Source: Phorcus lineatus
Taxonomy: Eukaryota; Mollusca; Gastropoda; Trochida; Trochidae
Length of the DNA: 64,000 nucleotides
Direction of reading: 5' to 3'
Assembly: GCA_921293015.1 (NCBI GenBank)
Contig: OV121096.1
Coordinates: 9,985,000-10,048,999, forward strand
In this document: positions 640 through 44,286 of the stretch, in pieces
How positions within the stretch are numbered: the first letter of the stretch is position 1
Layout of the letters: each line of letters opens with the position of its first letter
The notes under the pieces: model-generated
Database searches by the model: none
What the model saw: only the letters and a program-made list of their open reading frames with translations
What the model was told of the DNA's origin: nothing
Made by a program: the position numbers and the translations under genes

Positions 640-1380
640 AAGGCATTAAAACACATCAGTCACACTATCAATGAGACACCCCATTATGACAAACTGAACA
701 ATGACCTTATCATGACCACCACTAAAAACATCACATCGCATCACCTTATCATTACCACGACTAAAAATATTACATCGCATCACCATCACACTATTACTGT
801 CATCACCGCACATCGCCAACATAGCAAACCTTCATCACAACACATACATCACCATTAAACTATTACCATCATCACAGCACATCACAATTACACTATGACC
901 ATCATCGCAGCACATCATCAACACACTATAACCATCATCGCAGCACATCATCAACATACTATAACCATCATCGCAGCACATCATCAACACACTATAACCA
1001 CCATCGCAGCACATCATCAACACACTATTAACATCCTCGCAGCACATCATCAACACACTATTACCATAATCAGAGCACATCACCACCTCACAATAATTAG
1101 AATAACATCACATCACCATCAGACTATAAATGTTATTACTACACATCATCACCACACTATAACTGATATAACATTACCATCAGACTATAAATATTATTTC
1201 TACACATCATCATCACATTATATCATCATCATAGTCACTAGGCTAACGATCAACCCTATATCCATCATACCATCACTTCGTCTACACAACATACGCAAAC
1301 TTCATCATCACCGCTATTTCAATTATTTTATTAAAACAATCGCGATCCATCTTTTACATTCCATTGTCATTATCACATCT
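640..1380. repeat. Minisatellite with 33-bp core unit
   Basis: The core at 865-1095 has about seven 33-bp units of the form accatcatcgcagcacatc + atcaacacactata; three are nearly identical (898-996). Flanks from about 640 and to about 1380 are decayed relatives rich in CATCAC. They include two 39-bp spaced copies at 712 and 751 and two copies near 1120 and 1176. The unit length divisible by three keeps a His/Thr/Ile-rich frame open on both strands, which should not be read as a protein. Confidence 0.92.
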
Positions 1381-11859: not shown

Positions 11860-13150
11860 AATTTAAAACCAACGGCGTTAATTTGCGGGCGTTGAATAAC
11901 AATGAATCCCGGAAATTTTACAAACGCAACCATTTATCTTCTAAATGATATATGTGTGCCGAATCACAACTATCCTTTACACGAATACTAATCATACAGC
12001 TACTGCTTGCAAACTTAGTACACATATCATGTTAAAAGCTGTTTACTTAAGTTCGACTGATTTATCATCGTTCTGCCAAAATTTATGAATGTAGATGAAG
12101 AAATATTATGCTCCAATGACATACTTAATCATCATGTTCATCGACCTAATAGTGCACATTGGGTATGGGTGTTTTAAACATTGGTTCAAAATACAAACAA
12201 ATTACTACAGAATTCATGCAGAAATAGGAACATTGGAATTCAAATTTTTACCCCATGCCTAGTTTTTAGTCATGAAAGAATTGTTTCGATTATCATAGGA
12301 AGATGAATGTTGAAAGAATCAGGAAATCGATAGATCTTGATATTTAAAAACGCATCAAGGTTTTATCTAGCTATTCACTTTCACTTTGCCTTGAATAGCC
12401 ATGTATATTTAAACATGAAATAAACCATCTTTTCCGCAGGCTTTTGATAAACATGTACATGTAAGTATAGATACCTCTCTATGTAGCATATATAACGAAA
12501 GTAAAAAAGAGTCGACCATCTAGGATTCCCTCCAGTGTTCCGCAATAAATGTATCGGTATCTCGGCTTACGCTTAGTATGGTGCGGAGACGGATTCCAGT
12601 TTCCCTTTTTACCGGCACAAGAGTGAATCCAAGATGGCCGACTATACCATACATTTTTGTATACTTATATGTAGTAGTTTCCATAGACTGGTATGAGTTC
12701 GTACATGTATATTAAATTCAAAGTTTGATGCTTATTGTTTTCTAATTGGTCCGGGTGGAATGAAAAAAAATATTTGATTACCTTATCAGTCAAAGAACTT
12801 AGAATGTAATGAAATAAAATTAATAAATTAAAAACAAAATGAAAACAAGTGCCAACAAATTATCAAATAGCATATTTATTCCCAATTTTCTCCGATCTCG
12901 TTAAATCAGGGGTGAATATTCGCCAACCAAGAGCTGCACTGTGGTTTGACTGCAACGCTGTTACTGAGTAAATTATTAGAGTTTTATTGAAAGATAATGA
13001 ATCGTGGAATGAAGTGGTTATACTTGATATTCTGTCCGCCGATGGTGTTTAAAGTCATCTTTTTACTAATTAACGAGGTGCGAACCCAAGACATGTAATA
13101 AATTCCAAGGGCACTCCTAACCGAGCCAGTACCGTCTCGTCTCCCTAGGG
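11860..13150. other. Intergenic; G+C-richer spot near 12.53-12.66 kb
   Basis: No gene recognised. 12530-12660 is richer in G+C than its surroundings and includes 'atccaagatggccgac' (about 12627-12642), a YY1-like AAGATGGC word, so a regulatory role is conceivable. The stretch also covers the predicted 3' UTR of the DH31-like gene (about 12970-13161). Confidence 0.3.
12983..12988 (-). terminator. Candidate polyadenylation signal of the DH31-like gene
   Basis: A minus-strand AATAAA lies about 175 bases 3' of the stop codon. It is the nearest canonical hexamer I noticed downstream. Others exist farther on in this A+T-rich sequence, so the true 3' end is uncertain. Confidence 0.4.
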
Positions 13151-13161
13151 GGGATAACTCT

Positions 13162-13217
13162 TCATTGTTGTCTCTTCCTACGACCAGGTCCGTAAGGATT
13201 TTCTGCCATATTCGCAG
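13162..13217 (-). CDS. DH31-like precursor, terminal coding exon 4 (amidation signal)
   Basis: The acceptor is ttcttattttacag. The first two bases complete Ala, then ANMAENPYGP, GRRKR, QQ and stop (TGA at 13164-13162). Gly after Pro is the amide donor and RRKR the convertase site, so the mature C terminus should be Gly-Pro-amide, as in DH31 peptides. The phase match (exon 3 leaves one base, exon 4 supplies two) across a 6.66-kb intron is strong independent support for the join. Confidence 0.88.
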
Positions 13218-16200
13218 CTGTAAAATAAGAAATGTAGAACATAAGGTTAAGTCTTATGGTTATCATCAAGAGCATCAAGAGTTGTTAAACAAAGTCCATG
13301 TGTAAAAACGCATATGCTGGGCAACACCAGTAACAAGTACTGCATGAACAGAGATATTATACTAATTTGGGTAAGGAAATACGCACAGTATGAAAGGAAA
13401 AATGCTTTTGTCTATGAAATGCTGTAATGATTTCTCCTTCCTGATTGTAACTGATCGGGCTTCATTTGATATATCATTTAAGGAACCAATAATAAGGGTC
13501 AGTAAACCTATAAATCACAATCCCAATTAGCTAAGGGTCTGTGCACAAGATTTCAGGTTTCTAGAGCTTTTGCATCTGAAGAAGAAGAAGGAGAAGAACA
13601 AAGGGTTAAAATGATTTTTTGAATGTGGCAGCAGTCACCTTTGTTAAATAAGATGCCAGCTTTCAGCTTACTAAGCCGTTTGCACTTATATGAAGACAAA
13701 AAAAAATGTTTTAGAGCGTGGCCCGTGTGACACTTATGAGGACCAAAGGGTCATCCAATTTATCTATAATAATATATTTATCATCATTAATAACATTTTT
13801 TAAATGTGGAAGAATACTACAAGACATAATGAAGCGCGCTTTATAGCTTTAAAAGTAAAAAGGATAAGAGTTAAATGAGTAATCTAGAGTATTAATCATT
13901 CCTTTAACAAACCAATCAAACTGAAGTAATTAGCAAGAAAACATATCAAGAAACAATGTCTTGAACTCAATTTAAGTATCTCCTTTCTATGCAAGAAGGC
14001 TGGCGATAAATGTCGTCATATACTAAGGTGACGTCTTCAAGAAAAAACAATAAAAGATACGACTCAATAGAAAACAATTTTGATCTTTTACTTGTCTCCG
14101 AGCTTTATCTCTATCGGTTTAACACGCAAACACAAAATTGTTGTTTAATGACCCTATTTCAATAGTTAGCAGATTGAAAAAATCAGTCCACCACAAATAC
14201 CACTTAAGACGAATACAAGATCACCTTTTCAAAACACAAACCATATCAGAAACTGTTACGAGCGTGCAACTGCCTTTTCACAAAAGTCAGCCATACTTTA
14301 CTCAGCACTGAGCAGTTGAACACGAAAAGCTTTCCACGTATTTCATCAACACCTCATTCTTTCATTATGCATTAACAATTAATCGTTGTTTGTTCAAAAC
14401 GTATTACAGTACCCCCATTAGCACATGGCGTGCCACATGTGCCCAATTACTCGTAGTAGGGATGTATAGAGGTGAGAGGGAAACTGACTTGACAGGTTAA
14501 AGGAGATTTTTCTCAAGTTAGAGTTGACATAGTCGCAGGAAGAATACATTTGGGGATTGTACAAGCACATTGAGAACTTGCTTGAACATGCTTTTAATAT
14601 GCAAGGATAATAGCTGGAAGTTACGATAAGTATTTACTTTGGAAAGACCAACAACCCTTATAAGGTGTTAAAGTGTACTTCTAGATGTATATTTCCCTGT
14701 ACATATATATCAACAAATCTATAATCATAAAACATTTTCGGGAAGTTACCAAACAGGTGTCTCTCCAGAGAGACTCCATTCTTTAGTGCAACTCATCCGA
14801 TCCTACGCTTATCTCTGTTGTAATTCGAGATCTTCTCTAACTAGAGACGGAAAAGATTGATTGAAGAAAGATAGTTGTGCAGTCAGCGACACTAAGAGAG
14901 AAATCATTTTGAAAGCCTTGATCCGTCCCGTATGCATAGGAAAACATAAAATTTTAATCTCTGTGAACTGCAAGCACGAGTCTTCTTGAAAGATCACGGT
15001 AACATTATATGGCGAGTGAATCATGACATCTGTCTCGAGGACAGCAACTAACTATGTTTGAATTGGCTGAAATTCGGCAGTTCGGAATGTTGAAAAGTGC
15101 TTGAATTAGAACAAATGTTAGCGCAGGACTTGACCTGACCGATATCTATAATGGGAGAATGAATAGACTCCTTTTGAAACCAAAACCTTCAAAGTAATTG
15201 TGATCATGAACATTTGAAAATATGTTATTAGTATAAACATAATATATATTATGATAATATTCTTATGAAAATAAGAGGAATTTAGATAGAAAAGAAGCCT
15301 GAACTGTCGCTAAAGGTACATAGGTTAAGATATTGTCAAAGATTTTCTTCTTACAGTCCTTTTGATTTGAATAAATTTTATTCCGAAGTTGATATTGAGC
15401 ATTCTATCAGCTCAGTAAGTTGTTCATCAGTCCACAGTAGTCAAAAAGTGTGATTTCACTAATTCCTTAAAAAAGACGTATTCACCAGTGAATGGTTAAT
15501 ACCTGAGACTTCGACGTCATGAAACAATGTCAAACGTAAGAATTATCTTTGTTACTGTAAACCATCGGCTCCCCCTAGCGACTTCTTAAAGCGAAAATTA
15601 CCCTGTTTGGAGAAATTACAAGTAACAAGTGGTACAGCTGACAACTACTGACAATTGCTTTGTGTATCTCAACATGCGGATAGACAAGTTGAATATTTTC
15701 ATGTGTGACTGACCAACTTATGAAAATGCAAAAATCTTTCTTCCTCATTTGAGATAAACATAGTCTTGGTCAAGAAAATGGAAATATCTATTGAAATCCC
15801 CCCCTGCAATGATTTCCCGAATTAAGACAAAAGTAGAAACAGGAGAAAATGAAAAGTTACAATGACTCTATAGACATCGTATACATGTGAACAGCCATCA
15901 TATATGTAAAGTCATCAAGCCAATAGCTTCGTCTAACCTATCCACGCTAAAACGATTGCTTTAAACGCAGATGATAAATAAAATATCCAGACAAATGGGA
16001 AATGTACGCCTCTGAAAGGATGTCTTCATAGCATCTGTCATATCTTGGACATAATTGCCTGTGTGGAAAGTGCACGGCCGCCTGGTATTGATTTTAGACA
16101 AGTCATCATTTAACAGGATTACACATTTCGTGAAATGCTTTCGAATGTATAAGATGATCTCATTGAGAGATATTTGACATACGTTTCAATGTATGAATAA

Positions 16201-16672
16201 AATTGTTAATTTGATTTAAGGAGACTGTAGATTCGGTCGCCACATAACGGAATTATGTTGCCATTTGTGAAGTATGTTTGGTTTGTGATTAATGTTGTAA
16301 TTTTGTTTTCCGACACATTAAATAAAACATCTACAAAAGTATTGATTATAAGTTTTTACACTACCTATAAAAAGGTTAACATGTTTGCAGCAAACGCAAC
16401 ATGTATTATTGTTTTGTCTCAAATTGCTAAATGTTCATTGGTTGATGTTTTGATATGTTCATATACATATACTAAATGCTTTAAAAAGTTAGATCATATC
16501 AAAAGTTATGAGCGTATTTTTATTGTAAAACTTATATTCATAGTTTAAGGAAACAAAAGTTAATGATGAATTTTTCTAATGTTAAATTTGTCCCATAGCG
16601 ACGGCTATAAAATACTCCTATAACTACAACGTATACTACTACTGCTGCTACTACTACTACTACTTCTACTAT

Positions 16673-16703
<31 letters not shown>

Positions 16704-16896
16704 GTTACTACTACCTATACTACTACTACTACTACTACTACTACTATTATTATTATTACTACTACTACTACTACTAATACTACTACTACAACCACCACCA
16801 CAACCACCACTTCTACTACTACTTCTATTACTACTACTGCTACTACTACTATTACTACTACAACCTCCACCACAACCACCACTTCTACTACTACTT

Positions 16897-16934
<38 letters not shown>

Positions 16935-19900
16935 GCTACTACTACTACTACTACCTCTACTACTACTGTTCGTAACCAACACCGTAATTACCGCCATGGC
17001 GATCAATTGTACCACTATCAGAACCTCTACTACTACCACTACTTCTACTACTATTACTTCTAATTACTTATGTTACTGCCATTACTGATGCAATTGTTAT
17101 CATCAGAGCGTTGTGCTCCGGTTCTATCATTAACATGGGTTGTCATGGTGAAAATTCGTACCCTGTGCGTTATTTAGCAGGCCAATTTATTCCACTTTAC
17201 CATTAAAAAATTTTCAACAATTTTTTTCAAAACCTTTCAACTATGCTTCAGCCAAAATGTTAACAGAGTTTGAAAACTTCCGGGGCACACTTGGAGAAAG
17301 AATTGAGACATGAAGTCATCATATATACCTACTAACAGCAGAATGTCTCAAAAGAAAGTTCACAAGTTGTTGGTCAAATGCCTTCTTTATTTGTTTTCAG
17401 GGGAAGGGAGGTGGGTCTCCTGCATATTCCTTAGTTCAGTAACTCGTCGATAAAAAATAAATGGTTTCGATTCTCCGACTCCCATCGAATTCCAAGATTT
17501 TTCACCTGGTTGAATGTTGACTGTTTACGTTTATGGTATAGCAAAGGGGGTTTTAAAGACTGTGAACGGAGATCAAACAGAATAAAAGACGAAAGGCACG
17601 AGTAGGGGCGTTTCTACTTACGGACAAAGCTACGATCGACAATCATAAGTGGCAGCTCAGTTTAGATTCAAATGACAACCCGACTCCATGCTTCGGCACA
17701 ATTTGACTTTATTGCCATCCTAAACGTCTTTATGCTGACCACTAGATGTCTGCTATGGCGTGCATTACGTTGAGGATAAAGAATGGAATAATGGAGCTTA
17801 AACTACCGATCTGAATGGATAGGTGTATATGGTATGTAAATATATGTAGCAGTAATTGAATGGTTGAAAGCATGTTTTGCTTAAATCCGCATGTGATGAT
17901 CAAATTGTATCACACTCCCTTAATAAATATATAAACAAATTATGAAAGCGTTATTTGATAATGTAGATCTCGTCAATCGAGTTAGTTCTTCGAAACGACT
18001 AGGCTTTCTTTTTATGTCTGATCAAAAGGTACCTATGAAAGGAAATAAATATAATACACGTATTTGCATTTCAAATGCTTAAGATGTCAAATGAATAACA
18101 TTGAGTTAGTTATGAATTTGCAAGTTAAATAACGTTAGTCTATATGCATCTACAAATGTTACATACATTTATCCACAGTGTTCAATTCTCTATCGATAAC
18201 TTAATAACATGCTTCTGGTAGTTTCAGATTAAATTGTCTGAATTTAAACAGAAAGTTACCTAAGTGTGAAAATTTTATGTGAAAAATTAATTTAAAAAAT
18301 AATCACTTGAAAATTTTATTCATAACTAATTGTGTGCTGAATTTATGTCTTTAATTGTGAAACTACATAATAGATTTTGCTTCCTAATTACAAAAACAAC
18401 AAAGTTGTTACCAAATTAATTGTTCTGGAAATTTTATCCTATTTTCAACAGTTCAAGAGGACTTTACTCATATGCTTTCAGATTGCATTTTGAATTCCTT
18501 AGAGTCCAATGAGTGTACACTTTTCTATGCTTTCGAGGGAGGCATTACATTTAATACTGACCGTAGGTTATCAAAAAGTTACTTCTATTAAATTTGTATT
18601 CTAAAAGAACTGCCATTTTGAATAAAAGTTTTGCATACAGTAGTAGCCCTCGTCAAAATGCAGACACAGGTATCATCACTTTACTTGAAAGAATTGAATA
18701 AATTACTTTACGTCAACCGATATTGACTTTCATACCTCAATGAAACAAAACATGTACATAAACACACGAATAGCAGAATCCTCAAAATAAATATATCCAA
18801 AAGTTTAAAAAAGTTATCTGAATGATATTTTCATTTTTAAGCTGTTAGAAAATGATACTATCGTATTATAAATTTATTTGTTCTGAAATATGGTTTACTT
18901 ACTTATCAGGCAACTTTACCTGATGAAGAACATTGCGGGCATTTTGTTAAATGTTTATACGATGTATTTTCAGCAATCACATGTGATCTTGTACATATCT
19001 ACGCGTCAAATCCTGGTTTAACACAATTAACAAACTGGCTTAAGACTTTAAGATGTTCGTCAGGTCATAACCATAACCAACAATAACTAAGCCAATTGGA
19101 CTGCATTTATGTCGATACACGGATTCTAATTAGGAAGTTACTCTTCTTCAGTTATCCCAACCTAAGTTCTGATAAAGGCACTGATCACATTACTACAGGA
19201 TGTGAGGTCAAAGTTAAGAGCCCAAAACATACACTTTGGTCACATGGCCAAACTTGGGGAAACAACGTCCATACATATAGGACCTGTAACCCAGCCAATA
19301 CCTACATTTTTTATCAAGAAAACGATTGTTGAATCAATTGCTCTATTGTTTACCAGTACATCTGCAGAGGCTGTATCTTAGTTGAAATAATGACTAAAAC
19401 AACATTTGTAAACAAACATAACTTTTAAACGTTTACAATAGGGTAATACGTCAGTAATGAACAAATGTGTCTCATATTGGAAAAGATTTTGTATCAAAGG
19501 GCCTTCTTTCCTGTCGTTATTCTTTTCTGAATTGCGTGGTAAATACAGTAAATATTTCATAGGTGATACATTATACAGAAACAGATCATTTCTCCACTCT
19601 TTCAAGGTTAAACGCGAATACTCAATGTTTAACACTTGTATGGTGTTTTCAGCAAAATCCTATACTTACGAAATAACTAAAAACTGGAATTGTGATATCG
19701 TTACCTAAACATACAAAAGCAATCTCCTAGTTATAGGAACGACCTCAGTAAGTCAAGACCTTATAATTGTTCTTATGACTGCTCTTCATTGTTTGACACT
19801 CATATGAAATATTCGTTTGGGAATATAATTTGCCTCTTTATCTTTCAACTCCGTAGGTCAAAGGTTTGTAATTGTGTTACCTTCTGCTGCTTTGGCATAG

Positions 19901-22900
19901 TCTGATCCTGCGAAATGACGCGACATCAAACCGAAATCAGCGTGGCCTCGGCGCTCTCTGAAATAGATAGATGATCAAATAAGATGTACAATCTAACCTT
20001 TATCCAATCAATACAAGCATCATCTAATAATGTGAATCTCGAAACATCATTGCAACAATTGACCATTCTTTTCATCTATTTTATCTCAAAGTGATTATCA
20101 ATGAACGAAAAATAAAGGCCACACTTATATTTATAGGAGATGCAGCGAAATTTAGTCACATAAGGTACTTTATCTTTCTAAACTAAGTGATAAAGTGCAT
20201 CATAAATTCTTTATCGTGTCCTACATGACGATATATCCTACAAAGGACATGTGCTGTGATACCCTTAATGAATAAAGTTGTATATACTTCTCGACAACAC
20301 ATATGCTAATCAAGTTATAGTATTTTGTTTTGGACTACTGAAAACCTGGTGCAATTTTTCTGCATACTAAGAAAATTACACGAAATCAGATAGAGAAATT
20401 AAATAAAGATCTGATTTTAGAATTTCTGTATTTTAAACAAAACATATTTTTTTTCAAAGAAAACATACAAATCTTAAAATAAAAATAAATTGGTTAATGT
20501 TTTAATGAAGGTTAAATGAATCTTAACACACGTACACTCTCTGGTTTCGAAGGGAGTTTAGCAAATAATCAACAAGCGATATCGTTTCATCCTCTGTGAG
20601 CCCTAGGGCTGGTATCTCCTCTTCCGCTCTGAAAATAAACAAAGACGGACTTTGTAATCAGAAACAAAGTAAAAGGAACGATCATTTAAAAACTAATATG
20701 AACATCAAAGAAATAGGTACTTAAATTTAATCATCAATTACACTTATTATCATTGTAACACTTGTACAATATTTGAGTAATGGAGTATTGATGGTTGACC
20801 ATGATGTAAAAACTCAAAAACCATTTATTCTTTTTTGTCGTTGAAATTAAAGTCGTGTCATAATGGTAGCATAAGGTATTTACTACCTACATATATATAT
20901 GTATCTAACATTCCAAAATTTTCTTTCCTGGTGATTCACCATTCTTAATGTTAATGCAATTGTCATTCTTAGTAGATCAAAATTGTTTCAGTTATTTTTT
21001 TCAAAAGAAATTTTAAGTTTCTTTGTAGTGTTTGCTTGTTTATCTTGAATGGTACCATTCGATTTTCTCTAGTATACATCCAATGTTTATATAAAGATAC
21101 ATAATTCAGATTTCAAGAAAAACTCATTTAGAGTTTTCCTATGGCCGGGCTCTTATAGGGAGCTTTTATTTTCTCATTTATTTGATCTGTTTTAACCTTT
21201 ATAATATACTCATCATATCGACGTATATGTTTTCCAATTTATTTTTCAGAATGAAATTCTGTCACAAATTAAAGTATATTCCAAAGTTCAACGTCCCTGA
21301 AATCAAGGTAAATAAATAATTTATTACTATAATTCAGTTGAACTTAAATCACTTGATACACTCACAGAAAAAAATCAATAGAGTCTTAATAGATAAGGAA
21401 TCATATATCAGTTACCACAGAATTTTGGTTTGGTTTGTTGTCATACTCTGAGTTGGAACGCTAAATACATTAGCGGGTATCGACTGACAGAAAAAGAGAC
21501 ATGAAATGTCATGGTATCAGAGAAGAATTGGCAATATGTATGTGTAGGAGTTGGTTGCCACAAGGCAAAGTAAGGAACACGATGACAGACCACTGGATTC
21601 TTGCATGAATGAATGAGGTATTAATTCAAAAGTTTAGGACAATATTCCTACTACGTCACTTTCAGTCTAGTTGTGACAGTCTACAGTTTGCAAGTAGAGA
21701 GCATTTCTACTATGTATGCTACTTTGGTTGTTCTTGAGTATCCTAGATTAAAAAAGGAGACGCTGACAACCGTTTCTCAGGATAAAATACGATTTCTGAA
21801 AACGGGCCAAAGTGACCTCACTAGAATTTTGCCTTTTGATTCAACTTAATTCAGTGACTTGAATTTTTCAGGGCAGCTTACAAATCTGTTGCACATGTTT
21901 ATCGAAAATACGGTTTATGTTCCACACAACTGTATAATTATAGTTATTCCCTCTTTGCAAATACTCAATTGCCATTTCAAGAAATTCAGCAACAGAACCC
22001 AATGCGCTCTTGGACTAAGCGATTGTTCTTACTATAATTTAAAGGTAACTAGCAATAAGGGGGCTTTGTGAAAATTGGTCAATGGCTAAAAAAAACTTCA
22101 AACTTCGTAACGTTAACATTTCTGTGTAGGGTTTTTAGTCATAACGACATACAAATTCTGACAATAAAATCTGGATTTTAACCCAATTCAAAATAGGTTG
22201 AAAATATCAGCTGGTCAATTTCATAGATTTAACGGTACAGTTTTACTCTATATTGAGGGGGCATTCGGCTTTGGACCAAGTAGTCCGAGGTTCGAATCCC
22301 GCCAGGGGCTTGGCAAATTGTCTGCTGAAGAGAACTCTTTGAGATGCAGTACCTTTGGAGTGCAATGCTTAAATGAATTTCAGCGCAATACCCCCCATTA
22401 TTTCCAACAGATTGTCGCAGGTTTCACTGCAATGCATAACCACAATAGTGTTTCGGGCTTTCTCCCTGCAATAACACTAGCCGTGTTATGAGTGAAATAC
22501 TCGTGAAAGCGGCAATAAATCCCAAATCGACTATACCCTACATTGATATATTCTTTGCTATTGCTGAAAACTAGACACTTTTGATGTTTTAAAGAGGATA
22601 TGTTGATGTGGTTTATGAATATCCATTTAAGCAAAAACGTATCATTCTTTGTTATAAATTCGCCATGGCAAGTGATCTCAAATTCACCGGTGAGTTTGTT
22701 TACAATTTGCCGGGTTGGCAATGTAAAAAAACCTCAAAGGCATCTTCGTTTAAATGACCTTTCACACTGCACATTGACAGAAGAAAATCAGTTCTAGTTG
22801 AACCATCCGCGTTGTGGCAATATCAGCGTCAAACTGTCTTTCAATTCAAGTGTCAAAATCAATTATGTATTTAATTCAAAATTATAATGCACAATCCTTA

Positions 22901-24612
22901 TTTTCTGTTCCTGCTTGCAATTAATAAACACTATCAAGAGCGATAAATAAGATCTTAAATGAAACAAAGTGCAAAAATGTAAAACGTTTTCTTGAAGGTA
23001 AAAACATAATTACATGCATTTTCAGAGTTTGCTATGTGTTTCTAGTTTATTGATTTAATTGCAACCAATACACTTTCATTGCAATAAAAAACTGCATAAT
23101 TAGGTTATATCAATATCAGGCAACGATGTTAGAGACATTACATTTTTAAAATGACTTCTAGTTCTTTAACATGGCTGTTGTCGAACTCGCCATAGCTGTT
23201 GAAAGATTTTTAAGTTTTGAAAAAATGTATAAGAAAATCAAGAAACTTTTGAGGACAAAGGAGGGTATAAAAAGTTGTCGTCATATTGATAATAATACTC
23301 TGGTCAGCAAATTATGTTATTTTTTACGGTTTTTATAGATATTAATGCCCGGGCTTTTTTTTAAGAAAGCCTGTATGGGAAGAAATACGTTCAGAAACAA
23401 GTTTGTTTGAACAATAATGCTAGGGGAACAAATTTAAAAGCACGTTTCGAAGAAAAATGCTATTTCATTAACCCTTTTACGCAACCAAAACGAAATTATA
23501 GTTATTTTTTTCCGTTAAGCTTTGACTTATAACTATGATAAACTAATAATGAGGTTCGGAGAGCAATCACCAGAGGAAAAACACAACACACTTGTAAAGC
23601 ATCAAGTATTCAAAATGTGTGTGTATTCGAAAACCCCCCACAATATTTACTGCCGTCGTAAAATGACTATAAAACGCATTCGATAAAATATAAGCTCTTT
23701 TCATTAGTTTTTAAATAAGCCTTAACTACATCAAAAGTAATGCATATTTTAGACCATTTACAAAAAGAAAGAGAAGTGAGGCAAAAAGTGAACGCACAGG
23801 TGTATCGTCCTCATATAAAAACTGACACACCTGATGTATCTTATCGTGTTAATACCACAGTCATATGAACTAATATAACGTTTACAACTAATTAAAGGTA
23901 CAATTCCATTCGACGTAATGCCTTATATTAATAAGTATTTCACAGGTTATCAAACGATACTTATATGTCTCTTGATGCACCTATTGACATTAAAAGTAGC
24001 TATTCATTGAAGACATATGTGTGTACTGCCATATTGTAAATAAGAAACTAAAAATAAGTAAATTAAAACATTGGAGAAAACAACCCTAATTACCTAAAGA
24101 GCTACAATTTAAACATCCTGGATCTTAGAATTAAAGTGTAAATGGCTTCCATGGCAACCCCGAATCACAACAGTTCCTTACAACCTTATTTATAGAAAAA
24201 GGCGTGATCATGATATGAGCGTGTTATGATAATTAGTGCGATCTTAATAGTAGAACCTACAACTTATAAAACGTGCTTCTACTTTTTTCATGTTTATCTT
24301 AGTAGGTGTATACTGCATAATACCTAAACAGTTAAGTTATAAAGGATAACTATTCTTTAAATACCACCTCTTGGGGAAGCATCTTGTTTTATTTTATATC
24401 ATCAGCCTAAAATTGCGCCGCTAAATTTATACACGTTTTTCAAAGGGAAGTAAATTGTGAAGATACCATTGTTACACTACAAACTGAAACTACTATCTTA
24501 AACAAAAACATATAGCTCGCACTTACCTCTTGCCTCCTGATATTAAATCGAATGCGGATGAAATGGCGCAAAAAGAGAGAAGAGCAAAGGACAAAAGCAA
24601 CAGCCTGGCCAT
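13162..24612 (-). CDS. DH31/calcitonin-like neuropeptide precursor, four coding exons
   Basis: Coding segments on the minus strand are 24612-24527, 20628-20536, 19957-19881 and 13217-13162 (86, 93, 77 and 56 nt). They join in frame to 312 nt, giving 103 aa plus TGA. Order: signal peptide (about residues 1-20, MARLLLLSFALLSFCAISSA), a KR site, an acidic spacer (AEEEIPALGLTEDE...), an RR site, then a mature peptide of about 33 aa starting GHADFGLMSRHF and ending MAENPYGP. This is followed by GRRKR, the signal for C-terminal Pro-amide and dibasic cleavage. The DFGL-x-SR-x-F-x-G-S core, the AK and AN positions and the terminal Gly-Pro-amide match the family of insect diuretic hormone 31, calcitonin-related peptides acting on class B GPCRs. 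The length is typical. Secretion from neurons or endocrine cells is inferred. The exon 2/3 junction has alternatives (see those exons) that do not alter the mature peptide. Family assignment is confident; the biological role in this animal is unknown. Confidence 0.88.
13218..19880 (-). other. Third coding intron of the DH31-like gene
   Basis: A 6.66-kb intron bounded by donor AGAAG|gtaaca and acceptor ttattttacag. It holds the (TAC)n microsatellite at 16.6-17.06 kb. I looked for a second amidated-peptide exon (Gly-Pro or Pro followed by Gly and basic residues) and saw none, but the check was by eye. Confidence 0.7.
16611..17058. repeat. (TAC)n trinucleotide microsatellite with 72-bp higher-order repeat
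   Basis: About 450 bases of ACT/TAC triplets with GCT, ATT and CCA variants. A block starting acaaccaccaccacaacc at 16788 recurs at 16860 (acaacctccaccacaacc), a 72-bp higher-order period. On the minus strand it gives a poly-Ser frame, which is not a gene. Confidence 0.97.
19881..19957 (-). CDS. DH31-like precursor, coding exon 3 (core of the hormone)
   Basis: The acceptor is ctatctatttcag followed by AGAGAGCGCC, so three AGs compete within four bases. With the first AG and the phase-2 donor of exon 2 the frame is ERR, then GHADFGLMSRHF, then AGSDYAKAAE, ending with one base of the next codon. RR is the convertase site that frees the N terminus. The donor is AGAAG|gtaaca. This exon carries the diagnostic DFGL core, Ser-Arg, Phe and Gly-Ser residues. 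It is too short and too closely flanked by stops to appear as a long reading frame. Confidence 0.88.
20536..20628 (-). CDS. DH31-like precursor, coding exon 2 (acidic spacer)
   Basis: The acceptor is tttattttcag before AGCGG. The exon reads (R)AEEEIPALGLTEDE, then a hydrophobic stretch ISLVDYLLNSL and RNQR, the kind of acidic spacer that precedes the peptide in DH31/calcitonin precursors. I place the donor at GAGT|gtacgt (phase 2), which pairs with the first AG of exon 3 and gives RNQRVERR. Alternative donors AGA|gtgtac and TAC|gtgtgt (both phase 0) would pair with the third AG of exon 3 and give RNQRRR or RNQRVYRR. If the exon is not spliced, the frame reads V-Y-V-C and stops at TAA just downstream, which would give a truncated product without the hormone. 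Confidence 0.85.
20629..24526 (-). other. First coding intron of the DH31-like gene
   Basis: A 3.9-kb intron between the signal-peptide exon and the acidic-spacer exon. It contains a tRNA-derived SINE at about 22.25-22.35 kb in the opposite orientation and no further recognised exon. Confidence 0.7.
22250..22350 (+). mobile_element. tRNA-derived SINE, family with 50.15 kb
   Basis: It has a 'gggcattcggc' head and box B 'gaggttcgaatcccgcc', then 'ggcaaattgtctgctgaaga', 'gaac'. The post-B segment matches the minus-strand element at 50.1-50.26 kb (gcaa..tgtctgc.g.agagaa). It is not a functional tRNA gene because no acceptor stem pairs. Confidence 0.65.
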
Positions 24613-24617: not shown

Positions 24618-25064
24618 CTGTAAGAGAAGAATTCAATATGTAAAACATGCTTTGACCCATGTTTGTGAAAACCTAGTTTTCTTGACATCCGTATTCAATA
24701 AGAACTGGTGAAAAGGAACAGCGTTTTGTTCTACGCGGTTATCATGAAATAATTGCAGTGGAATATCAGTACCTAAATTGTAGATGATATCTTTGATCTT
24801 TAAAAAAAAGATCCAACACATATTTAAGGCTTCAAATTACTTTGAAATGATACCTGAAAACAAACAAAATTTAAAAAATCCAAAGAATGCGCTGGTAGAT
24901 TACAATTACATGTCATTATGTACTTCCATTGTCAAGAGGGGAATCTGTTACAATATACACACAATTACAACAGATCTGAAACATGAAAAGACATTATTTA
25001 AAAAAAGAACAATGGTTAATTCACCTCTTTGTGCGACTTTTCATCAGATAAGAAAAATCCTTAC

Positions 25065-44110: not shown

Positions 44111-44286
<176 letters not shown>

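Follow-up and report, generated by a model that had tools for sequence, protein, structure and literature searches.

A probable DH31-type neuropeptide gene in the topshell Phorcus lineatus

A stretch of 64,000 nucleotides from the topshell Phorcus lineatus (Vetigastropoda, Trochidae; contig OV121096.1; C37:9985000-10048999 in the numbering used here, and called the window throughout) carries on its minus strand four short coding exons, which very likely form a functional, apparently single-copy neuropeptide gene of the DH31 (diuretic hormone 31) type, of the cysteine-less branch of the calcitonin/DH31 family. The introns between the exons (Table 1) are 3,898, 578 and 6,663 nt long as computed from the exon coordinates, have GT-AG ends in all three cases and lie in phases 2, 2 and 1. 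The joined coding sequence is 103 aa long without an internal stop, MARLLLLSFALLSFCAISSAFDLISGGKRAEEEIPALGLTEDETISLVDYLLNSLRNQRVERRGHADFGLMSRHFAGSDYAKAAEAANMAENPYGPGRRKRQQ. In order, the predicted precursor consists of a signal-peptide-like start, KR, a spacer, RR, the 33-residue peptide GHADFGLMSRHFAGSDYAKAAEAANMAENPYGP and G-RRKR. The signal peptide and its end were judged by eye, and the presumed donor of exon 2 (GT|GTACGT) was chosen by continuity of the frame into exon 3. The first-pass annotation, made from the letters alone, had proposed four minus-strand exons with compatible phases and a precursor of this length and order, and all of these were found in place. In a search of the genome (957,807,699 bases in 74 contigs, the similarity searches scoring only the best candidates), only the gene's own four exons matched the precursor at E <= 10, and the gene appears to be single copy in this 958 Mb genome. 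A DNA pattern for GHADFG had four matches in the genome, one of them in the DH31-type gene. Paralogues at the other three were rejected, as these lead into short, unrelated frames that contain neither GLMSR nor any DH31-like sequence.

The anatomy of the mature peptide resembles that of DH31. None of its 33 residues is a cysteine, unlike in the Cys-type calcitonins, and absence of the cysteine pair is given as a mark of DH31 in passages of PMC6425005, PMC6002491 and PMC12638048. The peptide ends in Gly-Pro and is flanked by basic sites, RR before it and GP-G-RRKR after it. The predicted Gly-Pro-amide signal matches that of DH31, and several dibasics past Pro-Gly are described for arthropod DH31 precursors in a passage of PMC4237046. 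The length is near 31 residues without being the exact 31 that a passage of PMC7179676 gives as the insect norm. Where the first-pass annotation had counted a single one-residue insertion, there are two relative to insect DH31: the M of GLMSR, and another residue close to the first Gly.

The precursor was also searched against a protein database of 5.8 billion sequences. Among 13 candidates, the sole proteins at E <= 1 were isoforms X3 (E 6.7e-14) and X2 (E 4.1e-12) of LOC121382275 from the gastropod Gigantopelta aegis, annotated merely as "uncharacterized". A profile built from the Phorcus precursor, both Gigantopelta proteins and an insect DH31 peptide yielded, from 3,404 candidates, 380 matches at E <= 10, the best 120 of which were listed. 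These included SNE40_002748 of another gastropod, Patella caerulea, which is annotated as hypothetical (E 9.4e-15, 44% identity across 97% of the precursor). Judged by this match and by the gastropod match at E 6.7e-14, the four-exon gene is real, far beyond chance. The Gigantopelta protein shares with that of Phorcus GHADFGLMSRHFAGSDYA, the GP-G-[RK]KR end and the order of the precursor, and differs in the sequence of signal peptide and spacer. The Patella protein shares the spacer, the DFGLMSR and GSDYAR core and the PYGPG end. It differs in having GSV for GHA at the start of the peptide, L for F at residue 12, a divergent mid-peptide and GKRKW for GRRKR.

In all three gastropods the mature peptide has 33 residues, with the same length and gap pattern. 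Residues identical to Phorcus number 25/33 in Gigantopelta and 21/33 in Patella, and 19/33 are common to the three. Signal peptide and spacer vary more than the mature peptide across these species, as is expected of peptide hormone precursors. The Gigantopelta isoforms X2 and X3 differ at their start and in the ten residues directly before ERRG. Because the latter difference falls at the place of the Phorcus exon 2/3 junction, and because omission of Phorcus exon 2 would preserve the frame (93 nt, equal phases, as computed), a modular spacer is suggested.

Membership of the Phorcus precursor in the DH31 family is well supported by profile comparisons in both directions, for which each model was built without the other group. 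The remaining 117 of the best 120 profile matches all carry the Pfam domain PF27927, and all named species among them are arthropods, some being unnamed. Twelve arthropod DH31 precursors were picked by hand from these 117 non-gastropod matches. A hidden Markov model (HMM) of the three gastropod proteins gave 12/12 of them higher scores than any of 12,000 shuffles, with E values of 5.9e-5 to 0.1 (database size 177,635). Over all 117 listed non-gastropod matches, the same model gave 13.0 to 31.5 bits, in every case above the best shuffle (10.3), and 62 of the 117 reached E <= 0.01. Its scores were 5.4 and 3.0 bits on two Cys-type calcitonin exons of the Phorcus genome and 2.1 bits on the highest-scoring of 58 ND5 proteins. 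In the opposite direction, the HMM of the 12 arthropod precursors found Phorcus at E 1.6e-4, Gigantopelta X2 at 1.5e-4, X3 at 6.6e-4 and Patella at 0.27, and 0/10,000 shuffles reached any gastropod score.

Pairwise tests used an insect DH31 peptide with its sequence taken from the text of PMC7179676, a comparison free of selection by profile ranking. With local alignment, 4/5,000 and 2/5,000 shuffles were as good as the Phorcus peptide in two runs, and with free-end global alignment 2/5,000. For the Gigantopelta peptide, 10 and 17 of 5,000 shuffles were as good. The spacer also aligns with the spacers of Patella and of arthropod DH31. The DH31 assignment of the first-pass annotation is borne out by the profile matches in both directions and by the local pairwise scores. 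That annotation was to be abandoned if the precursor resembled no DH31 or calcitonin precursor; the resemblance was found, and its claim stands.

Cys-type calcitonins are present in the same genome. With a scallop calcitonin (from the text of PMC5996578) as query, two exons were found, a number to be taken as a lower bound. Both encode a pair of cysteines and a Ser-Pro-Gly end with a multibasic tail, and they match each other (E 2.1e-4; 0/5,000 shuffles). Since they are separate exons on the same chromosome, the DH31-type gene is distinct from them. A Cys-type calcitonin identity of that gene was rejected, given the lack of Cys in its mature peptide and of similarity to these two calcitonins, against which 1,209 and 3,464 of 5,000 shuffles were as good as the Phorcus peptide; the Gigantopelta peptide likewise showed no significant similarity to either. 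The Phorcus calcitonins are like the DH31-type gene in the Pro-Gly end, the multibasic tail, the chromosome and, as read by eye, an acceptor in phase 2 immediately ahead of the dibasic site that precedes the peptide. They are unlike it in the N-terminal Cys pair and in having the peptide within one exon. No clear signal-peptide exon of either calcitonin was found within the 10 kb around each (C37:5098000-5107999 and C37:10504000-10513999), where there are five hydrophobic ATG frames.

The nearer calcitonin exon lies 499,191 bases (0.50 Mb) from the DH31-type gene. Under random placement, a calcitonin as near would be expected with p ~0.001 and one on the same chromosome with ~0.047, both values to be doubled for two calcitonin genes. 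This linkage would fit the relic of a local ancestral duplication.

Table 1. Positions of the exons, motifs and repeats described in the text (window positions unless a contig is named; E values of exons 1 to 4 are for matches in the genome to the precursor).
Feature	Position	Strand	Description
Coding exon 1	24527..24612	minus	86 nt; ATG, signal peptide MARLLLLSFALLSFCAISSA, FDLISGGK, first two bases of R; donor gtaagt, phase 2; E 3.7e-9
Coding exon 2	20536..20628	minus	93 nt, phase 2 to phase 2; rest of R of KR, spacer AEEEIPALGLTEDETISLVDYLLNSLRNQR, two bases of V; E 8.7e-12
Coding exon 3	19881..19957	minus	77 nt; E-RR cleavage site and mature residues 1-22, GHADFGLMSRHFAGSDYAKAAE; E 7.0e-9
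Coding exon 4	13162..13217	minus	56 nt including TGA; mature residues 23-33 (AANMAENPYGP), amidation Gly, RRKR cleavage site, QQ, stop TGA; E 0.0045
Acceptor-like pyrimidine-AG tract	24618..24628	minus	ttctcttacag, five bases before the ATG; read from the sequence
AATAAA polyadenylation-type signal	12983..12988	minus	174 nt past the last stop-codon base; motif only
Second AATAAA motif	12875-12880	minus	282 nt past the last stop-codon base; motif only
TAC trinucleotide repeat	16634-16967		~111 copies, inside intron 3 of the DH31-type gene
33-base minisatellite	778-1163		~12 copies
TC repeat	44115-44280		84 copies
Cys-type calcitonin exon	C37:5103140-5103235		75% identity to scallop calcitonin, E 4.1e-10
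Cys-type calcitonin exon	C37:10508808-10508903		47% identity to scallop calcitonin, E 0.44
TA-type repeat tract (L006)	C74, 6300-9200		mitochondrial contig; ~2.8 kb, probably much of its 19.1 kb

The acceptor-like tract, lying so close before the start codon, hints at a putative 5'-untranslated exon ahead of coding exon 1. A tRNA scan found none, an Rfam search gave no match at gathering scores, and a PDB search with the mature peptide gave no match.

According to passages of the literature, DH31 was lost from molluscs (PMC3890597), appears lost in molluscs (PMC6002491), or was lost in most molluscs except polyplacophorans (PMC8557429), and it is described as present in the chiton Leptochiton rugatus (PMC6425005). 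The Phorcus gene contradicts the reported loss of DH31 from molluscs, for gastropods. The family is a known one; the novelty is a DH31-type gene in a lineage reported to have lost DH31. No report of a gastropod DH31 was found in the titles, abstract starts and passages searched; most subscription journals lie outside this coverage, so that prior reports may exist. Searches of the same literature for the letters GHADFGL, and for DH31 with Gigantopelta, gave no match. Besides those of gastropods, no lophotrochozoan DH31 sequences were recognised among the best 120 of the 380 profile matches or in the literature passages. The gene itself suggests why surveys can overlook DH31, as the peptide is spread over two tiny exons and the insect query has no match in the genome.

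Most likely, the Phorcus gene is a retained DH31. Prohormone convertases would cut the precursor at its dibasic sites, and the C-terminal Pro would be amidated from the Gly that follows it, giving a 33-mer with a predicted monoisotopic mass of 3451.546 (MH+ 3452.553). The peptide would then be released by neurons or neuroendocrine cells and would activate a calcitonin/DH31-type class B1 receptor, raising cyclic AMP. The gene would have been retained since the protostome ancestor alongside the Cys-type calcitonin gene, rather than having re-evolved from the latter. A wider proposal, which we put forward tentatively and regard as slightly more apt to fail than to hold, is that shelled molluscs did not lose DH31. 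At least three distant gastropod lineages would have kept it as a distinct peptide with two conserved insertions, the linkage to calcitonin in Phorcus (0.50 Mb) would be a relic of the stem-protostome duplication, and the DH31-type receptors retained by molluscs would have their missing native ligand in this peptide.

Several observations weigh against a retained DH31. The pairwise shuffle test has limited specificity: an unrelated insect peptide of the corticotropin-releasing factor (CRF)-like type reached 9/5,000 against the Phorcus peptide in free-end global alignment (229/5,000 in local alignment), and scallop calcitonins reached at best 44/5,000 free-end and 71/5,000 local, these being different calcitonins. 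The Patella peptide, at 118/5,000 against insect DH31 and 177/5,000 against a Phorcus calcitonin, is nearly equal to both and alone is not decisive. Patella alone is also weak on the arthropod HMM, where its E of 0.27 corresponds to 14.7 bits and the best shuffle scored 14.5. The profile whose ranking supplied the arthropod proteins contained gastropod rows, so that a mild selection effect may favour these proteins slightly. When the genome was queried directly with the insect DH31 peptide, there was no match at E <= 10. The Phorcus peptide exceeds insect DH31 by two residues and, unlike it, is divided by a phase-1 intron after residue 22. Precomputed Pfam annotation assigns PF27927 to the 117 other listed matches but no domain to the three gastropod proteins of the database; a Pfam scan gave no PF27927 match to the gastropod proteins, nor to the DH31 proteins P0123 and P0127, the copy used being apparently without that model, and so carries no weight here. 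Together with the shortness of the sequences, the absent genome match, the CRF-like score and the missing Pfam domain would also be expected of a real, secreted and amidated gastropod neuropeptide family that is unrelated to DH31 and resembles it by chance in a short Gly/Ala-rich peptide. This is very unlikely, given profile scores above every shuffle both ways (12,000 and 10,000), local pairwise scores reached by 2 to 4 of 5,000 shuffles, and a precursor layout and multibasic tail that match DH31; an unrelated peptide or chance was rejected on the Gigantopelta match, the pairwise shuffles and the HMMs in both directions. That the gene has decayed or is not expressed, or that exon-like pieces merely line up here by chance, is hardly credible. 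The donor of exon 2 does depart from the usual consensus, but four exons keep an intact frame and splice sites, and conservation among the three gastropods is highest in the mature peptide.

The gene could also be a gastropod calcitonin duplicate that lost both cysteines independently and converged on a DH31-like form, and so would not be a DH31 orthologue. The presence of Cys-type calcitonin genes on the same chromosome, one of them at 0.50 Mb, is what a local duplicate would show, and the near-equal scores of the Patella peptide are in line with such an origin. The loss of DH31 in molluscs outside chitons, as described in PMC8557429, points the same way, and some beetle calcitonin genes also encode similar peptides without the disulphide bridge (in a passage of PMC6585902). 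We nevertheless consider this origin unlikely. D, GL, SR, GS and GP stand at aligned places in insect DH31 and all three gastropod peptides, and those of Phorcus and Gigantopelta are not significantly similar to the Phorcus calcitonins. As the same form is found in three gastropod species of different families, any cysteine loss would also have to be old. A retained DH31 accordingly remains our reading of the gene.

A receptor for such a peptide may be sought among the class B receptors. The molluscan receptors are said in a passage of PMC8557429 to fall in a DH31-type group, with the pairing of the two peptide types and the two receptor types left undetermined there. A passage of PMC7200681 disagrees, in which the DH31 receptor (DH31R) is arthropod-specific and no molluscan homologues were found. 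A search of the Phorcus genome with Pfam PF00002 gave 103 exon or gene matches. Of these, 32 are on contig C19 (L044, L047, L052, L030 and others), many of them single exons of the third and fourth transmembrane segments (TM3-TM4) of class B1 receptors for peptide hormones; some of these are calcitonin-receptor-like, and others we take to be CRF-like. From 28 class B receptor exons that were translated, four were compared with solved structures, three of them having been chosen as what we assumed to be calcitonin-receptor-like. For those three the best PDB match was the calcitonin receptor. The fourth (C19, L030) was matched better by glucagon-like and PACAP receptors and shows no clear subtype. 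A single exon cannot fix the receptor subtype, and all of these are candidates only. With Cys-type calcitonins and a DH31-type peptide in one gastropod, the question of peptide-receptor pairing becomes directly testable in a single animal.

Among known systems, arthropod DH31 (diuretic hormone class 2, CT/DH) shares with the Phorcus precursor a Cys-less Gly-Pro-Gly peptide with the core D-x-G-L-x-[SGN]-R-x-[FY]-x-G, the order of signal peptide, spacer and peptide, and a multibasic stretch past Pro-Gly. It differs in sequence, the Phorcus peptide having 14/31 residues identical to the insect consensus. In the horseshoe crab Tachypleus tridentatus, the precursor LOC143232275 (P0123) contains two complete tandem DH31 copies. 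The basic insect DH31 gene, as described for beetles in a passage of PMC6585902, has three coding exons, for signal peptide, conserved spacer and DH31, with extra exons sometimes found between spacer and DH31. The exons of the Phorcus gene follow the same order, with one additional intron within the peptide. The DH31 of the polyplacophoran Leptochiton rugatus is, by its description in a passage of PMC6425005, molluscan, Cys-less and of the DH31 type, like that of Phorcus.

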